Source of the DNA: a candidate division WOR-3 bacterium
Lineage (GTDB): Bacteria; Hydrothermota; UBA3072
DNA length: 64,000 nucleotides
Assembly (NCBI GenBank): GCA_039804165.1
Contig: JBDRZZ010000005.1
Span: forward strand, 35,084-99,083
Direction: 5' to 3'
Positions 10,164-50,652 of this stretch are shown here, one piece after another. Numbering within the stretch: position 1 is the first letter of the stretch; every line of letters begins with the position of its first letter. The notes below the pieces were generated by a model, which ran no database searches, was not told where the DNA came from, and was given only the letters and a program-made list of their open reading frames with translations. Position numbers and translations under genes: made by a program.

Positions 10164-10704
10164 AAGTTATCGGCGTTTCGAGAAGAATTTTAAAATTTCG
10201 AAAAAAACACTAATTGAATTAGTTGGGCTTGCAAGACTTGGGGCATCCGCTGCAAATCTTCAGCCTCTTAAGTATATTATTTCAAATACAAAAGAAAAGA
10301 ATGAGAAAATCTTTTCCTGCACAAAATGGGCAACTTATTTAACGAATTGGGAAGGGCCTTCTCCAAGTGAGAGACCCTCAGCGTATATTCTAATTCTTGG
10401 TGATACTCAAATTACTTCTTCTTTCGGTTGTGATCATGGAATCGCGGCCCAGAATATTCTTCTTGGAGCTGTTGAAAAAGGATTAGGAGGATGCATTTTA
10501 GGAGCTCTTGATAGAAAAACCTTGCATAAGAATCTTAATATTCCTTCTCGTTATCAAATCTTACTTGCAATTGCTCTTGGTAAGCCGAAAGAAAAAGTTG
10601 TAATTGAAACCGCTAAAAATGGAAATATAAGATATTGGAGAGACAAAAAAGGTATTCATCACGTTCCCAAAAGATCTCTTAAGGAGTTAATTCTTGATTT
10701 GTAA
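10135..10704 (+). CDS. Nitroreductase-family flavoprotein
   Basis: 189 residues with the nitroreductase fold pattern: N-terminal ELIEKNRSYRRFE, then LARLGASAANLQPLKYII (FMN-binding) and the C-terminal GGCILGALDRKTL / IALGKPKEKV. These are FMN-dependent NAD(P)H oxidoreductases, and the substrate is not predictable. The start is inside the kinase gene with a good GGAGG Shine-Dalgarno (10123-10127). Co-translation with a cNMP-type kinase hints at a redox link, which is inference only. Confidence 0.82.
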   Translation: MIKELIEKNRSYRRFEKNFKISKKTLIELVGLARLGASAANLQPLKYIISNTKEKNEKIFSCTKWATYLTNWEGPSPSERPSAYILILGDTQITSSFGCDHGIAAQNILLGAVEKGLGGCILGALDRKTLHKNLNIPSRYQILLAIALGKPKEKVVIETAKNGNIRYWRDKKGIHHVPKRSLKELILDL

Positions 10705-10729
10705 AGTTTTTCCTCTCTATAAAGAGCTC

Positions 10730-10757
10730 TTGACAAAGGAATTCTTTCTTTTATATT
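10730..10757 (+). promoter_or_regulatory. Sigma-70-type promoter of the tRNA-Gly/tRNA-Cys/rpsT unit
   Basis: TTGACA (10730-10735), 16-bp spacer, TATATT (10752-10757). The predicted start near 10764 is about 7 nt before tRNA-Gly. The same promoter probably serves both tRNAs and rpsT, since no terminator is seen between them. Confidence 0.6.
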
Positions 10758-10770
10758 ATTTTTTAAATAA

Positions 10771-40581: not shown

Positions 40582-41676
40582 TTAACTTTTGGGGATAAAG
40601 AGGGTGAATTTAGAACCTTTATCCTTTTCGCTTTCTACTTCGATCCAACCACCCATTCCTCTTATTACGCTGTTGACAAAGAAAAGTCCTATTCCTGAGC
40701 CTCCTTCGTCTCCATTTTCTTCTGTTTTTGTTGTAAAGAAAAGTTCAAAGATTTTTTCTTTTACCGCAGGTTCCATACCGCATCCATTATCAGAAACTGA
40801 TATAGCGACATATTCTTTTTCCTTTTCGTCTTTCTCAAGGCGGAAGATATTTCTGACTTCAAAGTGAATTTTACCCTCGTTTGATTCTCCAATTGCATCT
40901 TTTGCGTTCATTAGTAGGTTTATAAGCACTTGATGAAGTTGGTCTGGGTCTCCTATTACTAAGGGTTCTGGATCAAAATAAGAAGCTGTAATTGTTAATT
41001 TTTTGGATAATGCTTGTTGACCTAAATGAACTACTTCTTTTACCACATCAATTACATTAAAGAGTTTCTTCTCTCCTCTAATTTTTCTTGTGTTAGAGAG
41101 AAGAGCTTTTAAGAGATTTTTTATTCTCCTTACCCCATCCGCACCTAATTGGACGTCCTCAAGGACTTCAGGGTCCTTTATGTATTCTAAGGCAGCATTA
41201 ATTCCATATGAAACTTCCATTAATAAATTGTTTGCTTCATGGGCTATTCCCCCAATAAGTTGTCCAATTGTTGCAAGCCTTCTTGAAGAAAGCATCCTTT
41301 TTTGGAGTATTTCTAATTTTGAGACATCTTTTGCCATTGATAAACCCCTAATTTGTGAACTCAAATTAAGGAAAATAGAACTCCATTCGTAAATTCTTTT
41401 ACTTCCAAATTCAGGCTTTATTTCTATATTTTGGATGATTATAAAAGGCTCTTTTTCATCAAAGGCTTCTCCTTCAATATTTCCCTCTTTTTGAGCTTTA
41501 ATTGATTCCTGTAACTCACGCATAAGTGTTGGTTCTAAGATTTCCTTTATTGGTTTTCCAAATTCTTGTTCTGCCCTTCCATTCCAGAAAAGAATTTTGT
41601 AATCTTTGTCCCAAGCGATAAGAGGAACAGGAATAAAATCAAGTAAAAATCCCAATTCTTTTTCTATCTCTATCAT
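40582..41676 (-). CDS. PAS-domain soluble histidine kinase
   Basis: 364 residues, no transmembrane helices. Residues about 5-125 are a PAS domain (FIPVPLIAWDKDYKILFWNGRAEQEFG). The HisKA-like H box is GQLIGGIAHEANNLL with His146. The HATPase has LINLLMNAKDAIGES, SDNGCGMEP and GSGIGLFFVNSVIRGMGG. It senses a cytosolic signal, and no receiver is adjacent. It lies downstream of the Sm-like gene behind a bidirectional hairpin and has no evident Shine-Dalgarno. Confidence 0.87.
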   Translation of the reverse strand: MIEIEKELGFLLDFIPVPLIAWDKDYKILFWNGRAEQEFGKPIKEILEPTLMRELQESIKAQKEGNIEGEAFDEKEPFIIIQNIEIKPEFGSKRIYEWSSIFLNLSSQIRGLSMAKDVSKLEILQKRMLSSRRLATIGQLIGGIAHEANNLLMEVSYGINAALEYIKDPEVLEDVQLGADGVRRIKNLLKALLSNTRKIRGEKKLFNVIDVVKEVVHLGQQALSKKLTITASYFDPEPLVIGDPDQLHQVLINLLMNAKDAIGESNEGKIHFEVRNIFRLEKDEKEKEYVAISVSDNGCGMEPAVKEKIFELFFTTKTEENGDEGGSGIGLFFVNSVIRGMGGWIEVESEKDKGSKFTLFIPKS

Positions 41677-41687
41677 AAAAGGTTTCT

Positions 41688-41739
41688 AAAAATAAAGGGA
41701 AGAGAGTAGGACTTTCTACTCTCTAAACCCTTTATTTTT
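41688..41739 (-). terminator. Long bidirectional terminator hairpin
   Basis: AAAAATAAAGGG (41688-41699) pairs with CCCTTTATTTTT (41728-41739), and inside it AGAGAGTAG (41701-41709) pairs with CTACTCTCT (41716-41724). The loop is 6 nt and there is a small A/AAA bulge. The outer arm supplies a U tract in both directions. It would end the peptide/Sm-like transcript before the histidine kinase gene. Confidence 0.75.
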
Positions 41740-41748
41740 GTTTTATTT

Positions 41749-41946
41749 TTATTCCTCCCAGTCTTTCACTTCAAGATGAGAAATCGCACGATGGGAGACG
41801 AAAACAGATCGGTTGTTCGCCATTGGGGTTTCCACTTTTAGAAATAAACCTCTATCATTTCTTCCAGTTACAGTCCCTTCAAACTTTGATCCATCTATCG
41901 TTATTATCTTTACATGTCTTCTTAACCCCCTTTTCCAGTCCACCAT
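41749..41946 (-). CDS. 65-aa Sm/LSm-like protein (candidate small RNA-binding protein)
   Basis: 65 residues with strong Shine-Dalgarno AAAGGAGGAG ahead of the ATG. The sequence suits a lone Sm-fold five-strand barrel: basic N-terminal helix (WKRGLRRHVK), Sm1-like VKIITIDGSKFEGTVTGRND followed by RGLFLKVE, then Sm2-like SVFVSHRAISHLEVKD. It lacks the Hfq YKHA motif. Sm-like proteins assemble into rings that bind RNA; that role is inferred from pattern only. It is second in a two-gene unit behind a candidate sigma-54 promoter. Confidence 0.7.
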   Translation of the reverse strand: MVDWKRGLRRHVKIITIDGSKFEGTVTGRNDRGLFLKVETPMANNRSVFVSHRAISHLEVKDWEE

Positions 41947-41970
41947 TTCTCCTCCTTTATTTTTTACTTT

Positions 41971-42108
41971 TTAACAATAACCTACAGTTCCATCACCGCT
42001 TAAGACAATCATTCCAATTTCTGGATTACTTAAATTTTCTAATTTTGTTCCCTTTTTCAAAGACCCAACAAAACTTAATAAGATTAATAATACATTTAAA
42101 GTAACCAT
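41971..42108 (-). CDS. 45-aa hydrophobic peptide, sigma-54-promoter proximal
   Basis: A 45-codon frame missed by length filters but with an ideal Shine-Dalgarno (AGGAGG at 42121-42116, 7-nt spacing). Residues 2-15 are hydrophobic (VTLNVLLILLSFVG), then SLKKG, then a polar tail ending SGDGTVGYC with a C-terminal Cys. It may be an anchored or secreted peptide, for example a signal or processed precursor. I do not recognise a family. The stop lies 24 nt before the Sm-like gene. The strength of the ribosome site and the promoter upstream support a real gene. Confidence 0.65.
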   Translation of the reverse strand: MVTLNVLLILLSFVGSLKKGTKLENLSNPEIGMIVLSGDGTVGYC

Positions 42109-42145
42109 ACGTACACCTCCTTTTATTCTTTTGTAATTTTTATAC

Positions 42146-42160
42146 GCAATACTCGTTCCA
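42146..42160 (-). promoter_or_regulatory. Candidate sigma-54 (-24/-12) promoter
   Basis: On the minus strand TGGAACG (42160-42154), 4 nt, TTGC (42149-42146). GG and GC are separated by exactly 10 nt, as required for sigma-54. There is one mismatch to the TGGCACG-N4-TTGC core. Predicted start near 42134, about 26 nt before the peptide ATG. No sigma-70 pair of comparable quality is present. Confidence 0.65.
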
Positions 42161-42213
42161 AAAAGATTAAGTTATTGAAAATCAAATACTTATATTGTTA
42201 AAAAGAGAAAATT

Positions 42214-42234
42214 TGTGACATTTATGTCATAAAA
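42214..42234. promoter_or_regulatory. Promoter-proximal upstream activator site (palindrome)
   Basis: TGTGACATTTATGTCATAAA with a 5-bp palindromic arm pair TGACA-N4-TGTCA (42216-42229). Centre at about -88 from the predicted sigma-54 start. Near-identical to the site at 42279-42299 except for three central bases. Confidence 0.6.
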
Positions 42235-42278
42235 AATTGCTTAATCTTTAGAAAGTATTGAAATTGCTGAATTTTTAT

Positions 42279-42299
42279 TGTGACAAAAATGTCATAAAA
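42279..42299. promoter_or_regulatory. Promoter-distal upstream activator site (palindrome)
   Basis: TGTGACAAAAATGTCATAAA with arms TGACA-N4-TGTCA (42281-42294). Centre at about -153, 65 bp (about six helical turns) from its twin. It lies 22 bp beyond the stop codon of the sigma-54 activator gene. Confidence 0.6.
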
Positions 42300-42320
42300 G
42301 GGACAGAAGAGGCGTAAAAT

Positions 42321-45300
42321 TTACTTTTTTATTTCAAATTCTTTAATTAGTCTATATAGATGTCTTTTTGAAATTTTTAAGTTTTCTGCGGTTTTTTTTA
42401 TATCCCAATTTGTTTCTTCAAGAGCTAAAAGGATTGTTTCTCTTTCCCATTTTTTCTTTATCTCTGGCCATGAGACCTTTTTCTCTTCTATTTTTTCTCT
42501 TTTTACTTCTTCTGGTAGGTCTTCTTCTTTTATATATTCTCCTTTACATTTAATTATAGAAATTTCTACAATATTTCTTAATTCTCTAATATTTCCGGGG
42601 AAGGGATAATTTTTCAAAATCTCAATTGCTTCTTCTGTAAAGCCCTTTATCTTCTTTTCTCTTTTTTCTCTAAATATTTTTAAATAATGTTCAAGTAAAA
42701 TGGGGATATCAATTTTTCTTTCCCTTAGGGGAGGGATTGATATGTTTATTTGGTTTAAACGATAAAGGAGGTCTTCTCTAAATTCTCTTAAGAAAGCCAT
42801 TTGTTCGATATCCTTATTTGTTGCAGAAATAATTCTAACATCGACCTTTCTTATTTCTGTTTCTCCCACCCTTCTAATTTCTCCAAGGTCTGTAACTCGC
42901 AAGAGTCCTGCTTGGATTGAAGGAGGAGCATCTCCAATCTCATCCAAGAAGAGAGTTCCTCCGTTTGCCTCTTCGCACATTCCCTTTTTGTCTTTTATTG
43001 CTCCGGTGAATGAACCCTTTTTGTGACCAAATAATTCACTCTGAAGCAAGGTTTCTGTTAGGGAACTACAATCCACAGTTACAAAGGGCCTATTTTTTCT
43101 TTTGCTTAAAGAGTGGATCGTTCTTGCAATAAGTTCTTTTCCAGTTCCTGTTTCTCCTGTGATTAAAACATTTACATCTGTTGGAGCAATTTCTTCTATT
43201 GTTTTATATATCTTTTGCATTGGTTCTGAAATCCCAATTATTGAATGGAAAGAATGTGGAGGGGAAGTCATTTTTCTTAACCGAGCTAACTCCTCTTTTA
43301 TTTGGTAAAGGAGATCTCCTTTTGCAAAAAGAATGCCGAGAATCCTTCCAATTGACTGTAAGAACTCTTTATCAGAAGGAAGGAAAATGTCTTTTTTTAT
43401 TGTTGAATCAAGATAAAGAACTCCATAAATTTTGTTTTTATAAGTTATTGGAACACATAAAATTGAACGGATTTTATTTCTCTGAATGGAATCCATTTTG
43501 TAAAATCTTTCATCTATTGTTGCATCTCCTGTGATTATGACTTCTCCTTTTATAACTTTTTCAGTTATTGTTTTTGAGATCTTCCTTGCGTCCTGGAGAG
43601 TTATTTCATCTATGTTGTAAGAAGAAACAATAATATTTTTATCATTCTCTTTTAAAATTAGAGCTCCTCTTTCTGCATTTAGAAATTCTGTAATTGTGGA
43701 TAAAGCTTCATCAAACCTTTTTTCCGAGTCAATTGAAGAAAGGAGTTTACTTATTTCGTCATAGGTGTAGATATATCCTTTTCTTAATGAAGTTTTTCTA
43801 GCGCATTCTGCAAGAAGTTTGGTTGTTTCATTTAAGAAAAGTTCTGATTTTAGCTCCTTAAAAACTTCCTCTGCTTTTTTTAATTCTTCAATTGCTTCTT
43901 CTATTCTATTTTTTTGAAGTAAAATGGTTCCTTTTTTCAATTGTGTTTGAGCAATGTGGAAAGGTAGGCTAATCTTAGAGAAAAGCTTAATTGCTTTATC
44001 GCAAAACCTTGGTTCCTCGTTTATAAAACCCCAAGAAGAAAGAAGCTTCCCTTTTTCAAAATTTGATTTTAAGGAAGAGATTTTCTCAAAATAAGGTTTT
44101 AGAGTTTCTACTGCCTCTTCTTTTTTTCCTTCTAAGAATAAAACTTCCGAAAGTTGTCGAGCAATATCTCTTTCATCTCTTGGGTCTCCTTTTGTTCTTT
44201 TTAAAACCTCTCTAAAAATCTTCTCAGCTTCTTTTAGTTCTCCTTTCCATCTAAGAATTGTTCCTTCTAAGTCTCTTAAGTCATATTTTTCTTCTTTTAA
44301 TTCATTTCTTAATCTTTCAACCTCAAGCCAATTTCCTTTATATAGCTCTCCTTCAAGTAATTTTGCCTTTAAGAAAGGTTGAAGCTTTCCATGCCTATTT
44401 TTAAAATCTTCTATTTTCTCTTTTAATTTTTCCCAAAAACCAGTATTAAGATAAAGAATAGATAAACTTGTTAGACAAGGAGATTCAAGTTCTCCAATTT
44501 TTAATTTTTTGAAAATTGAAAGGGCCTCTTCAAGTTGTTTTAAAGCTTCCTTATAGTTATCAAGGCGTAAAAGGGAAATTCCTTTATATGTTATAAATAT
44601 TGCTTCATTTACAAAATCTCGTTCTTTTTTAGATATCTCAAGACATTTCTCAAAATATTCAATTGCCTCTTCATGTTCTTCTTTCTGTTGATTCGCAATC
44701 CCTCCAAGGGTTAAGAAATGTCTTTTTAAGGTAGGGGAGAGGTCTTTTTTTAGTTCCTCTTCAACAATTTTTAATGTTTTCTCAAAATCTCCTTTTGCGC
44801 AGAGAAACCTTCCTTCAACAAATTTTAATTTTGGTGGTAATTCTTTTGCTTCATTTTTGTATTCCAAAATGAGTTTTTCTGCCTCTTCTATTCTTTCCTG
44901 TCTTACAAGAAAATAACCTAACCAATAAATCCCTTCTTCTTTTAATTTTCCCTTTGCAAATTTAATTCCTTCTCTAAAATATTTTTCAGCTTCTTCTTTA
45001 TTCTCAAGCCTATCAAAAATAGCTCCAATTTTTAATAAATAAAAAGGATTCTCTTTTTTCTTTTCTAAAAGTTCTTTGTAAATGGATAGGGCTTCATTTA
45101 TCTTTCCTCCTAATTCAAAAACTCTTCCAAGAACCATCCGAAGAATTGGCTCATCTTTTAAAAGAAGAGCTTCTTGTAAAAATTTTCCAGCTTCCTGATA
45201 ATCTTTCTCTTTTATTTTCTTTTTTGCTATTTTTATTAAAGATTCTCTATATTCTTTTTCTTTACCTAAGTCTTTTTCAAGAAGATGTAAAGACTCAGGA

Positions 45301-46946
45301 GTGGAGATTCTTTTTTTTATTCTTTTATAAAGTTCTTCCTTTTCTTTTTGGGTCAGTTTTTTATAGAAGAAATCTCTTGTCCAATTAGAAAGAAATTGAA
45401 TTCCTTTCTTATCTTTTTTTAATATGTTCTTTGAGGAAAGAGAATTAACCAAAGTGTAAGGATTTTTTATTTCAAAAATTGAAATTGAATTTAAAGGGAA
45501 GCTTTCCTGGAAAATGGATAGTTTTTTTAATAGTTCCTTTTCTTCTAAGGGAAGCTTTTCGAGTTTTGCTTTTAAATTTTCTTCAATACCTTTTGGTAAG
45601 GAAATAGATAAGGGAAGTTTCTCATTAAAGAAAATTTCATCTCCTTTTCTTTCAATTGCTCCTTCTAAAATGAGATTCTCGATTAGCTGATTTAAAATAA
45701 GAGGATTCCCTTCGCTTTGTTTAAGGAGAAAAGAAGTTAGCTCTTTTTTATTTATAATCTTATTAGGAAAATTTTTGTTAATAATGAATTCAATTTCTTC
45801 TTTGTTTAAGGGAGAAAGGGTAAAAGAAGTTGTAATATCTTCTAATTCTTCTAATTCGTTTTCTTTATCAGGGCTGCTTATCACAATTAAAATAGGGCTT
45901 AACCTTATTGTTGTTTTATTTTCTTTTAAGATAACTTTTATTTCCTGAAGAGAAGCATTATCAATAAATATAACAATGGGTTCTGTTATTCTTTCTTCTT
46001 TAAAGAAAAGATGGATTTCTCCGGAACTCATTTCTTTTATGTTTATTCCCTTTATAAGAGCTCTTATTTTGAATTCCCTTAAAAGAGCTGTTTTGCCAAT
46101 TCCTTTTTCTCCTTTTATTAATAAAATGTGAGGCTCAGGCAGGTTGGAAAGATAAAACTCGAAATCCTTTATTTCTTTTTCTCTTCCAGAAAAAATTGTA
46201 ATAAATGAGAGCTTTCTTTCTTCTATTGTGGTTCCAAGAAGAATTTCTCTTTTTACATCTTCTATATTCTTAATCCTATTTTCAATTTGGGGTTCAATCA
46301 TCCTCTGAATTAGAAAGTTTAATTCCTCTGGAATTAAAGGATTATATCTTTCTGGTGGGGGAAGACGGTTTTTTAGTTTTTCCTCTATTATTTTTGACAG
46401 GTTTCCTTTAAATGCTTTTTCTCCTGTTAAAATCTCGTAAAGAATTATGCCAATAGAGTAAATGTCAGAAGAAAAAGAAGGGACTTCTGTAAAGGCTTCT
46501 GGAGATGTATATGTAGGAGTAATTATTTCCGGATTATATCCTGGATCGATCAACTTGACGTTATTTCTTTCATCCACAAATATGTGATTTGGTTTAAGAT
46601 CGCCACAGACAATTCCACGAGAATGTAGAACTGAAAGAGCATCAAGAATGGAGTTAAGAATATTTTTGATTTTGTCGAAATCTTCTTTTTGAGACGGTTT
46701 TACTTTGAAGACTTTGTCGATTGTTGGAGAAGAGATTTTTTCCATTGAAAAGCCACATTTTTCACCATCTTCAAACCACTCGTAAACAGTTACAAAATGA
46801 GGGTCTCTAATTTCAGAGAGAAGTTTAAATTGTTCGTAAAGTAAATCCTTCTTTAGAAGTTCTCCAACTTTGTATACAATTTCTCCTTTTTCGTAAATCT
46901 TTGCAAAATTTCCTTTTTTAATAAGATTAAATTTAGTTAAATCCAT
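42321..46946 (-). CDS. Giant sigma-54 activator: Ser/Thr kinase-like, ATPase, TPR, GAF, AAA+ and Fis HTH
   Basis: 1541 residues. Residues 1-235 are a protein-kinase fold (Lys26, GDLKPNH with Asp116, DPG with Asp134). Residues 250-450 are a STAND/AAA ATPase (Walker A GEKGIGKT, 279-286). About 565-1035 are TPR-like repeats, 1065-1205 a GAF domain, and 1235-1460 a sigma-54 AAA+ domain (GETGTGKE 1264-1271, GSFTGA 1311-1316, GGTLFLDEIGD). 1495-1540 are a Fis-type HTH (ISKRHLYRLIKEF). Within the kinase, the Asn five residues after the catalytic Asp is His121, and DFG reads DPG, so it may be a pseudokinase or variant. It probably activates the sigma-54 promoter just downstream of its own gene. Confidence 0.92.
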   Translation of the reverse strand: MDLTKFNLIKKGNFAKIYEKGEIVYKVGELLKKDLLYEQFKLLSEIRDPHFVTVYEWFEDGEKCGFSMEKISSPTIDKVFKVKPSQKEDFDKIKNILNSILDALSVLHSRGIVCGDLKPNHIFVDERNNVKLIDPGYNPEIITPTYTSPEAFTEVPSFSSDIYSIGIILYEILTGEKAFKGNLSKIIEEKLKNRLPPPERYNPLIPEELNFLIQRMIEPQIENRIKNIEDVKREILLGTTIEERKLSFITIFSGREKEIKDFEFYLSNLPEPHILLIKGEKGIGKTALLREFKIRALIKGINIKEMSSGEIHLFFKEERITEPIVIFIDNASLQEIKVILKENKTTIRLSPILIVISSPDKENELEELEDITTSFTLSPLNKEEIEFIINKNFPNKIINKKELTSFLLKQSEGNPLILNQLIENLILEGAIERKGDEIFFNEKLPLSISLPKGIEENLKAKLEKLPLEEKELLKKLSIFQESFPLNSISIFEIKNPYTLVNSLSSKNILKKDKKGIQFLSNWTRDFFYKKLTQKEKEELYKRIKKRISTPESLHLLEKDLGKEKEYRESLIKIAKKKIKEKDYQEAGKFLQEALLLKDEPILRMVLGRVFELGGKINEALSIYKELLEKKKENPFYLLKIGAIFDRLENKEEAEKYFREGIKFAKGKLKEEGIYWLGYFLVRQERIEEAEKLILEYKNEAKELPPKLKFVEGRFLCAKGDFEKTLKIVEEELKKDLSPTLKRHFLTLGGIANQQKEEHEEAIEYFEKCLEISKKERDFVNEAIFITYKGISLLRLDNYKEALKQLEEALSIFKKLKIGELESPCLTSLSILYLNTGFWEKLKEKIEDFKNRHGKLQPFLKAKLLEGELYKGNWLEVERLRNELKEEKYDLRDLEGTILRWKGELKEAEKIFREVLKRTKGDPRDERDIARQLSEVLFLEGKKEEAVETLKPYFEKISSLKSNFEKGKLLSSWGFINEEPRFCDKAIKLFSKISLPFHIAQTQLKKGTILLQKNRIEEAIEELKKAEEVFKELKSELFLNETTKLLAECARKTSLRKGYIYTYDEISKLLSSIDSEKRFDEALSTITEFLNAERGALILKENDKNIIVSSYNIDEITLQDARKISKTITEKVIKGEVIITGDATIDERFYKMDSIQRNKIRSILCVPITYKNKIYGVLYLDSTIKKDIFLPSDKEFLQSIGRILGILFAKGDLLYQIKEELARLRKMTSPPHSFHSIIGISEPMQKIYKTIEEIAPTDVNVLITGETGTGKELIARTIHSLSKRKNRPFVTVDCSSLTETLLQSELFGHKKGSFTGAIKDKKGMCEEANGGTLFLDEIGDAPPSIQAGLLRVTDLGEIRRVGETEIRKVDVRIISATNKDIEQMAFLREFREDLLYRLNQINISIPPLRERKIDIPILLEHYLKIFREKREKKIKGFTEEAIEILKNYPFPGNIRELRNIVEISIIKCKGEYIKEEDLPEEVKREKIEEKKVSWPEIKKKWERETILLALEETNWDIKKTAENLKISKRHLYRLIKEFEIKK

Positions 46947-49647: not shown

Positions 49648-50652
49648 ATGAAGAAGTTTAGTTTAGTAGTCGGTTGGAGTTGCCTGATTTTATTGATTGT
49701 TGCTCCTATAGGTCTAAAGGGAGGAGAAACGAAAATCTCTATGACGTTGTGGAATAGATATACTGCTGAAAGAAGCGAAGGGAAATTTACCAAAAGTGCA
49801 TTTACCTTAGAGAGAGGTTATTTTGGTGTTGAACCCACTTTTACAGATAGGATAAAAGGTAGATTCACAATTGATGTTTTCTCTTCTGATAAATTTGCAG
49901 ATGGAGCTGGACTTAAGTTGAAATACGCTTATCTTAATTTTACGCAAGTTTTGCCAATACCAGAGAGCGATATCCAGGTTGGGTTACTAAAGCATTATTT
50001 TGGAACTGTCTATGACTGGGAGTATATTTCTATTCGGAAAGCCCTGGAGGACGAGAGAAAAGTAGCTTCATCCGCAGATTATGGACTTGCTCTTTTTGGT
50101 TATATTCCGCATGGTTTTGGAGAATATGCAATTTCAATTTTAAATGGAGAAGGATATAATAAGACAGGGAGTGCCCTTGACAAAGAACCTGAAATTGCAG
50201 GTAACTTGAGAGTTATTCCTTTACCAGGATTAACTATTGGAGGCTCTATTCTTTATGAAAATAAGGAAAGTGATCGATTTGCCTATGTAGGTGTAGGACG
50301 TATTGCAAGAGGTCCATTTGAAATCTGGGGAGAGTATCTTATTCAAGATAAAAGCGATATTAAGAGTAATGGTTGGATGATTATGCCAATCTTAAAGCTT
50401 CAGAATTTAGCAAAATTGGATGTGGACATTATTGGAAGATTTGATAAATGGGACGGCAATACCGAATTAGAAAATGATGGAGATATGACTATTACCTGTG
50501 GGATAAACTGGAATCTCGTTAGAGACGAAAAGAATAAATCTTGTGTTTTCCTTCAAATTCAGGGAGAGAAGACTATTTTCGAAAATGAAGCTATAAGTGA
50601 TATTAATCAGCTTTTGATTCAACTCCAATGGAAATTCAGCAATACCATATAA
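49648..50652 (+). CDS. Outer-membrane beta-barrel protein, phosphate-porin-like
   Basis: 334 residues. The signal peptide (residues about 1-25, MKKFSLVVGWSCLILLIVA) is followed by alternating strands with aromatic ends (TLWNRYTAERSEG, GYFGVEPTF, RFTIDVFSS, KYAYLNFTQ) and ends in an aromatic-containing strand (LLIQLQWKFSNTI). It resembles OprO/OprP-type and short alginate-type porins only in pattern. Its PHO box and position before pstS argue for phosphate uptake across the outer membrane. AAAGGAGG lies before the ATG. Confidence 0.72.
   Translation: MKKFSLVVGWSCLILLIVAPIGLKGGETKISMTLWNRYTAERSEGKFTKSAFTLERGYFGVEPTFTDRIKGRFTIDVFSSDKFADGAGLKLKYAYLNFTQVLPIPESDIQVGLLKHYFGTVYDWEYISIRKALEDERKVASSADYGLALFGYIPHGFGEYAISILNGEGYNKTGSALDKEPEIAGNLRVIPLPGLTIGGSILYENKESDRFAYVGVGRIARGPFEIWGEYLIQDKSDIKSNGWMIMPILKLQNLAKLDVDIIGRFDKWDGNTELENDGDMTITCGINWNLVRDEKNKSCVFLQIQGEKTIFENEAISDINQLLIQLQWKFSNTI

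Follow-up and report, generated by a model that had tools for sequence, protein, structure and literature searches.

How a giant sigma-54 activator, encoded next to a short peptide gene and a small Sm-like protein in a bacterium of the uncultured candidate phylum WOR-3, is wired to its neighbours, and whether the peptide might serve as a signal, are the questions raised by the locus analysed here. The window, that is, the whole stretch of DNA analysed, comprises 64,000 nt of the assembly GCA_039804165.1 (contig JBDRZZ010000005.1, 35,084-99,083), with the respective genome of 1.96 Mb designated G000. A sigma-54 gene, on whose presence the earlier note on this DNA had made its proposal depend, is encoded by this genome as a single rpoN-like gene (Sigma54_AID, E 8e-12).

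Layout of the locus

The gene of a 1541-aa activator had been described to end at 42321 and to be followed by two palindromes at -153 and -88 relative to the predicted transcription start, a promoter, a Shine-Dalgarno sequence, a 45-codon and a 65-codon open reading frame and a terminator. Length and end of the activator gene and the entire order with all its coordinates were reproduced from the sequence, with the site positions matching exactly. The proposed unit of activator, peptide and Sm-like protein equally stands, but had omitted a fourth gene, a PAS histidine kinase present in most relatives, which sits directly beyond the terminator on the same strand. The features of the block are as follows.

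42321..46946, minus strand: giant sigma-54 activator, 1541 aa (Pfam/NCBIfam matches, orthologues in relatives)
42301..42314, minus strand: possible relic of a distal activator site (read from the sequence, putative)
42281..42294, minus strand: predicted upstream activator palindrome TGACATTTTTGTCA, centre -153 (exact; conserved in three relatives)
42216..42229, minus strand: predicted upstream activator palindrome TGACATAAATGTCA, centre -88 (exact; conserved in three relatives)
42168..42180, minus strand: IHF-like bending site TTTCAATAACTTA, centre -40 (one mismatch to WATCAANNNNTTR; tentative)
42146..42160, minus strand: sigma-54 -24/-12 promoter TGGAACGAGTATTGC (TGGAACG-N4-TTGC; sequence, relatives)
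42115..42120, minus strand: Shine-Dalgarno sequence GGAGGT of the peptide gene (read from the sequence)
41971..42108, minus strand: 45-aa peptide precursor with hydrophobic N-terminus and variable tail (homologue in G001, positional equivalents)
41749..41946, minus strand: 65-aa Sm/Hfq-like small beta-barrel protein (conserved in relatives; structure model)
41701..41724, minus strand: intrinsic terminator 3' of the Sm-like gene (sequence)
40582..41676, minus strand: conserved fourth gene of the block, coding for a soluble 364-aa PAS histidine kinase (domain scan, conservation)

Conservation of the block and its promoter

The block of activator, palindromes, promoter, peptide and Sm-like protein is found in three WOR-3 families (G000, G001, G004 and G005 in f1, G007 in f2 and G009 in f4), usually with the PAS histidine kinase after it. 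Activator, peptide, Sm-like protein and PAS histidine kinase follow each other in this order in G001, which belongs to the same genus, and in G004 and G005, which belong to the same family. G007, a member of another family of the same order, displays the activator end, palindromes, promoter, a 55-aa peptide and an LSM-like protein, after which a histidine kinase and subsequently a response-regulator-like frame are located, while G009 from a further family of the class harbours activator, palindrome, promoter, a 49-aa peptide and a 71-aa small protein. G002 and G003 were left out of this comparison, as their activators end at contig ends with the downstream genes unread. The conservation does not extend to the surroundings, as the window lacks, at the corresponding place, counterparts of the proteins encoded on either side of the block in G001 and G004.

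Both palindromes are perfect TGACA-N4-TGTCA sequences and, even when one mismatch is allowed, the sole matches in the 64 kb window, with 0.85 expected; equally, the promoter motif, from which a transcription start near 42134 is predicted, matches only once. Neither the palindrome count nor the promoter alone is significant against a shuffle of the whole window, and shuffles of the upstream region placed sites in both observed position windows in 0 of 20,000 cases. The palindrome centres are located at -172, -152 and -86 in G001, at -174, -153 and -86 in G004 and at -175, -154 and -88 in G005, with the two proximal sites thus kept at -152 to -154 and -86 to -88. In the window, the stretch 42301..42314, where the half-site TGTCC remains, might be the relic of a third, distal site centred at approximately -174. 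The intergenic region of G001 is about 600 bp longer, with the sites holding their distance to the promoter and not to the activator gene. A sigma-54-type promoter occurs at the same place in G001, G004, G005, G007 (TGGAACA-N4-TTGC) and G009 (TGGCACG-N4-TTGT). Five of the six promoters, those of the window and of four of the five relatives, also carry an IHF-like site (-37 to -40, no more than one mismatch), a tentative assignment given the high AT content of the sequence. As the earlier note had demanded of its own proposal, the relatives that possess the genes keep gene order, palindromes and -24/-12 promoter, with a spacing constant to approximately 2 bp.

A sigma-70 promoter for the peptide operon was not found on the right strand. 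Two candidates for additional regulon members were rejected, since the lone further exact palindrome in G000 (C4:9678) looks chance-like and the gene downstream of an exact palindrome in G001 (C43:85082) has a promoter that is by eye sigma-70-like and not of the -24/-12 type; the search for further palindromes allowing two mismatches stayed at background level. Because the exact palindrome is found three times in the 1.96 Mb genome, twice at this locus, and the flanking genes vary between genomes, the designation of the block as self-contained can be retained. The promoter architecture is well supported by conservation, with binding of the activator to the palindromes predicted, and the transcriptional half of the module, comprising activator, palindromes, sigma-54 promoter and peptide operon, can be proposed with high confidence.

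The giant activator

Pfam models identify in the activator a Ser/Thr kinase domain (aa 36-226), an AAA_16/STAND-like ATPase from aa 252 onwards, a TPR solenoid (approximately aa 560-1050; TPR_12, E 9e-26), a GAF domain (1075-1205) and a sigma-54 AAA+ domain (1236-1402; PF00158, E 6e-67), the latter with Walker motifs (GETGTGKE) and a GAFTGA-type loop (GSFTGA) and followed by the lid and a C-terminal HTH. This HTH is Fis-type, as the alignment to NCBIfam TIGR02915 reaches the model end (445/445), and PF02954 is matched in the activators of the relatives G009 and G015. By its AAA+ domain, its HTH and the conserved sites and promoter, the protein can be classed as a sigma-54 bacterial enhancer-binding protein with predicted DNA binding and activation. 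Orthologues are present in G001, G003, G004, G005 and G007, while the G009 activator carries PAS domains in place of the kinase and retains the ATPase-TPR-GAF-sigma-54 core. The AAA+ domain, the Fis-type HTH, the paired upstream sites and the -24/-12 promoter with a possible IHF-like site between are shared with NtrC, NifA, NorR and PspF, from which the WOR-3 activator differs by its very large TPR/kinase/ATPase sensory part and by an operon for a short peptide as its target. In the open literature searched, such an operon was not found described as the target of a sigma-54 activator.

Cytoplasmic TPR receptors that read peptide signals are known from Firmicutes and their phages. The TPR part of the activator (aa 520-1060), modelled at pLDDT 92, forms a long solenoid of about 15 helix pairs, whose best structural matches include a eukaryotic APC subunit (Z 26.7), which ranks above Rap, with the next family represented by a phage Rap receptor solved with pheromone present (Z 24.4, 329 residues). 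Z 17.4 is reached both by another Rap with peptide and by NprR with NprX, and the Foldseek list and the PDB sequence search for the solenoid contained generic TPR proteins only. The structural matches of the model are compatible with peptide sensing, though solenoids match many non-peptide partners. Should the peptide be a signal, the TPR solenoid would be its likely receptor.

The short peptide and the Sm-like protein

The peptide open reading frame is located 212 bp from the activator gene. Its product is 46% identical to the G001 peptide (E 6e-5), and positional equivalents are found in G004, G005, G007 and G009, with lengths of 42-66 aa across all six members of the block. Changes in the first 16 codons between the window and G001 concern mainly codon positions 1 and 3, with position 2 almost unchanged. 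Across families, the peptide can be aligned only in its hydrophobic N-terminal half, while the tails vary, namely GDGTVGYC, WEWGC, GGGGDGGGIPEIP, two copies of GGPNDGGGFIDELK (G005), GGGGGDGTVVIPPGGA and DDFLPPDIPGA. Export is likely for the peptides of G004 and G009 and uncertain for those of G000, G001, G005 and G007. In G000, G001 and G007, the hydrophobic stretch lacks a basic n-region and lysines come after it, so that the tail could remain cytoplasmic. The initially proposed output, a peptide plus an RNA-binding protein, agrees with an operon for a peptide and a putative RNA-binding protein; the view of the peptide is to be refined, as probable export and variable, partly duplicated tails point to a signalling peptide.

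Among the short products, the Sm-like protein is conserved best, with 44-70% identity in G001, G004 and G005, and the four orthologues have a VFVSHxAISHLE-type motif in common. Its model is a five-strand barrel (pLDDT 78), for which Hfq chains dominate the Foldseek results at TM-scores of approximately 0.6-0.67, with a best E of only 5e-3. In VIA-align, small barrels, among them Hfq, Gemin6 and a cytochrome domain, score Z 7-9, with diheme cytochrome c and Gemin6, not Hfq, in the top rows; values under 10 show a small barrel and not a specific relationship. The PDB sequence search with the Sm-like protein found nothing, the G007 equivalent has a weak LSM match below cut-off and canonical Hfq (PF17209) has no match above threshold anywhere in the G000 genome. 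The five-strand small barrel and the motif, which resembles the Sm2 region of Hfq, liken the protein to the Hfq/Sm family; on the other hand, it has no Hfq-family match at threshold and its gene resides within a sigma-54 peptide operon, with RNA binding and ring formation putative. A viral origin was considered and rejected, with the viral contigs devoid of an Sm-like relative.

A parallel version in other families

In the families f5, f10 and f14, giant kinase-TPR activators are equally found beside a -24/-12-like element and a Sec-type peptide. The palindromes are of the AAGTGTAAC-N5-GTTACACTT type (TGTAAC-N5-GTTACA), with one located at -122/-123 in G015, G044, G146 and G036 and none recognised in G059 or G032, and the promoter element downstream of them reads TG(A/T)CACG-N4-TTGC. 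The peptides of G015, G044, G146, G059 and G032 (46-60 aa) possess a classical signal sequence and a Pro/Gly-rich tail of approximately 19-33 residues, resembling typical Sec substrates with signal-peptidase-like sites. Among members of the same genus, the leader is 74-93% identical while the tails differ; the G044 tail contains RPPGVP twice. The small protein encoded next is, in G015, G044 and G146, a member of a 117-aa family that matches no Pfam model and has weak relatives in G032 and G036. G010, G040 and G048 encode peptide and 117-aa protein with no activator adjacent in the stretch read. Beyond E 1e-15, a profile search with the parallel-version peptide gave nothing but apparent noise. 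That giant TPR sigma-54 activators and short secreted peptides are again encoded side by side in distant families speaks, more strongly than any other evidence, for a joint function of peptide and activator.

Several loci show variations on this arrangement. The promoters of L100, L103, L084 and L091 have TGACACG or TGTCACG as the -24 element versus the canonical TGGCACG, with TTGC at -12 and standard spacing. At G036:C33 (L080) and G021:C97 (L088), giant TPR sigma-54 activators, palindromes and TGTCATA-N4-TTGC precede large secreted proteins, with a Por_Secre_tail in the one at G036:C33, representing the same wiring with another secreted product instead of the short peptide. Two tandem copies of the gene for the 117-aa protein enclose the peptide gene in G048 (L156 8507-9473) and at G040:C18, with no adjacent activator in the stretch read. 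A second locus, G048:C13 (L156) 10387-10765, combines three GTGTAA-N7-TTACAC palindromes with a TGACACG-N4-TTGC promoter, a 14-codon hydrophobic frame (MNILAIIISYLKGG) as first open reading frame and a repeat protein farther on.

Relation to peptide-pheromone systems

The Firmicutes RRNPP systems (Rap, NprR, PlcR, Rgg, PrgX) equally consist of a gene for a short precursor with hydrophobic N-terminus and variable, sometimes duplicated tail next to the gene for a cytoplasmic TPR protein. RRNPP_detector applies a propeptide of 10-100 aa and a receptor of 250-500 aa (PMC10075063). Three of five such properties are present in the WOR-3 block, namely propeptide length (42-66 aa), TPRs in the putative receptor and gene adjacency (212 bp); the putative receptor has 1541 aa versus 250-500 aa, and the features of a Sec-type export signal, for which SHP-like peptides are an exception, are clear in the parallel version and mixed in the version of the window. 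As receptor size deviates and the export signals give a mixed picture, the module is not classed as RRNPP, although it possibly works like one. The duplicated tail units in G005 and G044 parallel the intragenic duplications reported to be frequent in RRNPP propeptides (PMC10075063). Different from RRNPP, the putative peptide binding would occur in a receptor with kinase, ATPase and GAF domains, sigma-54 AAA+ domain and Fis-type HTH, the host is not a Firmicute and the pair is joined by an Sm-like protein and a histidine kinase.

Proposed mechanism and alternative explanations

That the block constitutes a sigma-54-driven, self-contained peptide-signalling module has, in our estimate, nearly an even chance of being correct. 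In the part that conservation supports, the giant activator would bind palindromes at two or three fixed positions, located 86-175 bp upstream of the -24/-12 promoter, and its AAA+ domain would let sigma-54 RNA polymerase transcribe the operon of peptide precursor and Sm-like protein, often with the histidine kinase next. The precursor might be exported and trimmed, with the variable tail as the signal, which might re-enter via oligopeptide-binding proteins or act on its own cell; the TPR solenoid of the activator might read this signal, resulting in positive feedback. Kinase/PAS and GAF domains would contribute further inputs, and a probable role of the Sm-like protein is to pass the output on at the RNA level or to adjust the circuit. 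Re-import is conceivable because four SBP_bac_5 oligopeptide-binding proteins are encoded in the genome. The block itself showed neither an exporter nor a protease or importer of its own, which counts against the module, as does the non-canonical -24 element of the parallel version. The signalling half, in which the TPRs would read an exported peptide and thereby close a positive feedback loop, is about as probable as not, leaning slightly to the negative.

The cytoplasmic tail favoured by the positive-inside rule for the peptides of G000, G001 and G007 would equally suit an envelope-sensing feedback resembling Psp, in which a membrane peptide with its tail inside directly inhibits or stimulates the activator and cell-to-cell signalling does not take place. 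In the Psp system, small envelope proteins are known to be under sigma-54 control and a sigma-54 activator likewise adjoins an operon with a small hydrophobic product; moreover, the AAA+ domain of the giant activator is matched by PspF models. However, this match is generic, Pfam and NCBIfam scans gave no PspA, PspB or PspC match among the block products and the activator is multidomain. Moreover, the equivalents in the parallel version, as well as the G004 and G009 peptides, carry signal-peptidase-like sites, and the tails vary and duplicate, unlike a fixed regulatory contact, which renders this alternative unlikely, albeit worth consideration.

Short Pro/Gly-rich tails behind secretion signals might also belong to a secreted effector with an antimicrobial or structural role, produced in response to an environmental signal perceived via kinase/PAS/GAF, with the Sm-like protein as immunity protein or unrelated regulator. 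A large secreted protein directly downstream of other giant activators (G036, G021) fits this explanation, which is nevertheless rather improbable, as the block is devoid of export and modification enzymes or a recognisable immunity gene and as the two versions have the pairing of peptide and activator in common but not the companion small protein. A translated leader as the sole role of the peptide frame, with the Sm-like RNA-binding protein as a sigma-54-controlled alternative Hfq, would agree with the superior conservation of the Sm-like protein, with a genome without canonical Hfq and with the peptide stop lying close to the Sm-like ribosome site. Yet, the almost unchanged second codon positions indicate that conservation of the peptide N-terminus concerns its protein sequence, and the parallel version retains the peptide next to a different small protein, so that this reading has very little probability. 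A defence system was considered and discarded, with the PADLOC matches being generic ones, to kinase and RtcR-type AAA+ models.

Extending the signalling module to both versions, a peptide-pheromone quorum sensing outside of Gram-positives, in which giant TPR sigma-54 activators read secreted hypervariable peptides in at least two WOR-3/Stahlbacteria subtypes, can be proposed tentatively, with the balance somewhat against it. In the open-access full texts searched, and thus provisionally, no paper was found on sigma-54 in Stahlbacteria or on TPR receptors and peptide pheromones linked to sigma-54 in this sense; WOR-3/Stahlbacteria are likewise not mentioned in a recent study of sigma-54 regulons across phyla. 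If true, cytoplasmic peptide sensing would be extended to other bacteria and tied to sigma-54, and communication or adaptive regulation in this candidate phylum would for the first time become accessible to study. Even if the peptide is no signal, the locus offers a compact switch based on sigma-54, whose operators and promoter are defined and which is directly testable in a laboratory strain.

Other observations in the genome

A second giant kinase protein, a 1363-aa frame with no recognisable sigma-54 domain, is located at G000:C37:4680-5360 (L094). Within the window, a probable outer-membrane protein of 334 aa without Pfam match is encoded at 49648-50652, adjoining PhoB/PhoR-like genes and a phosphate-binding-protein-like gene.
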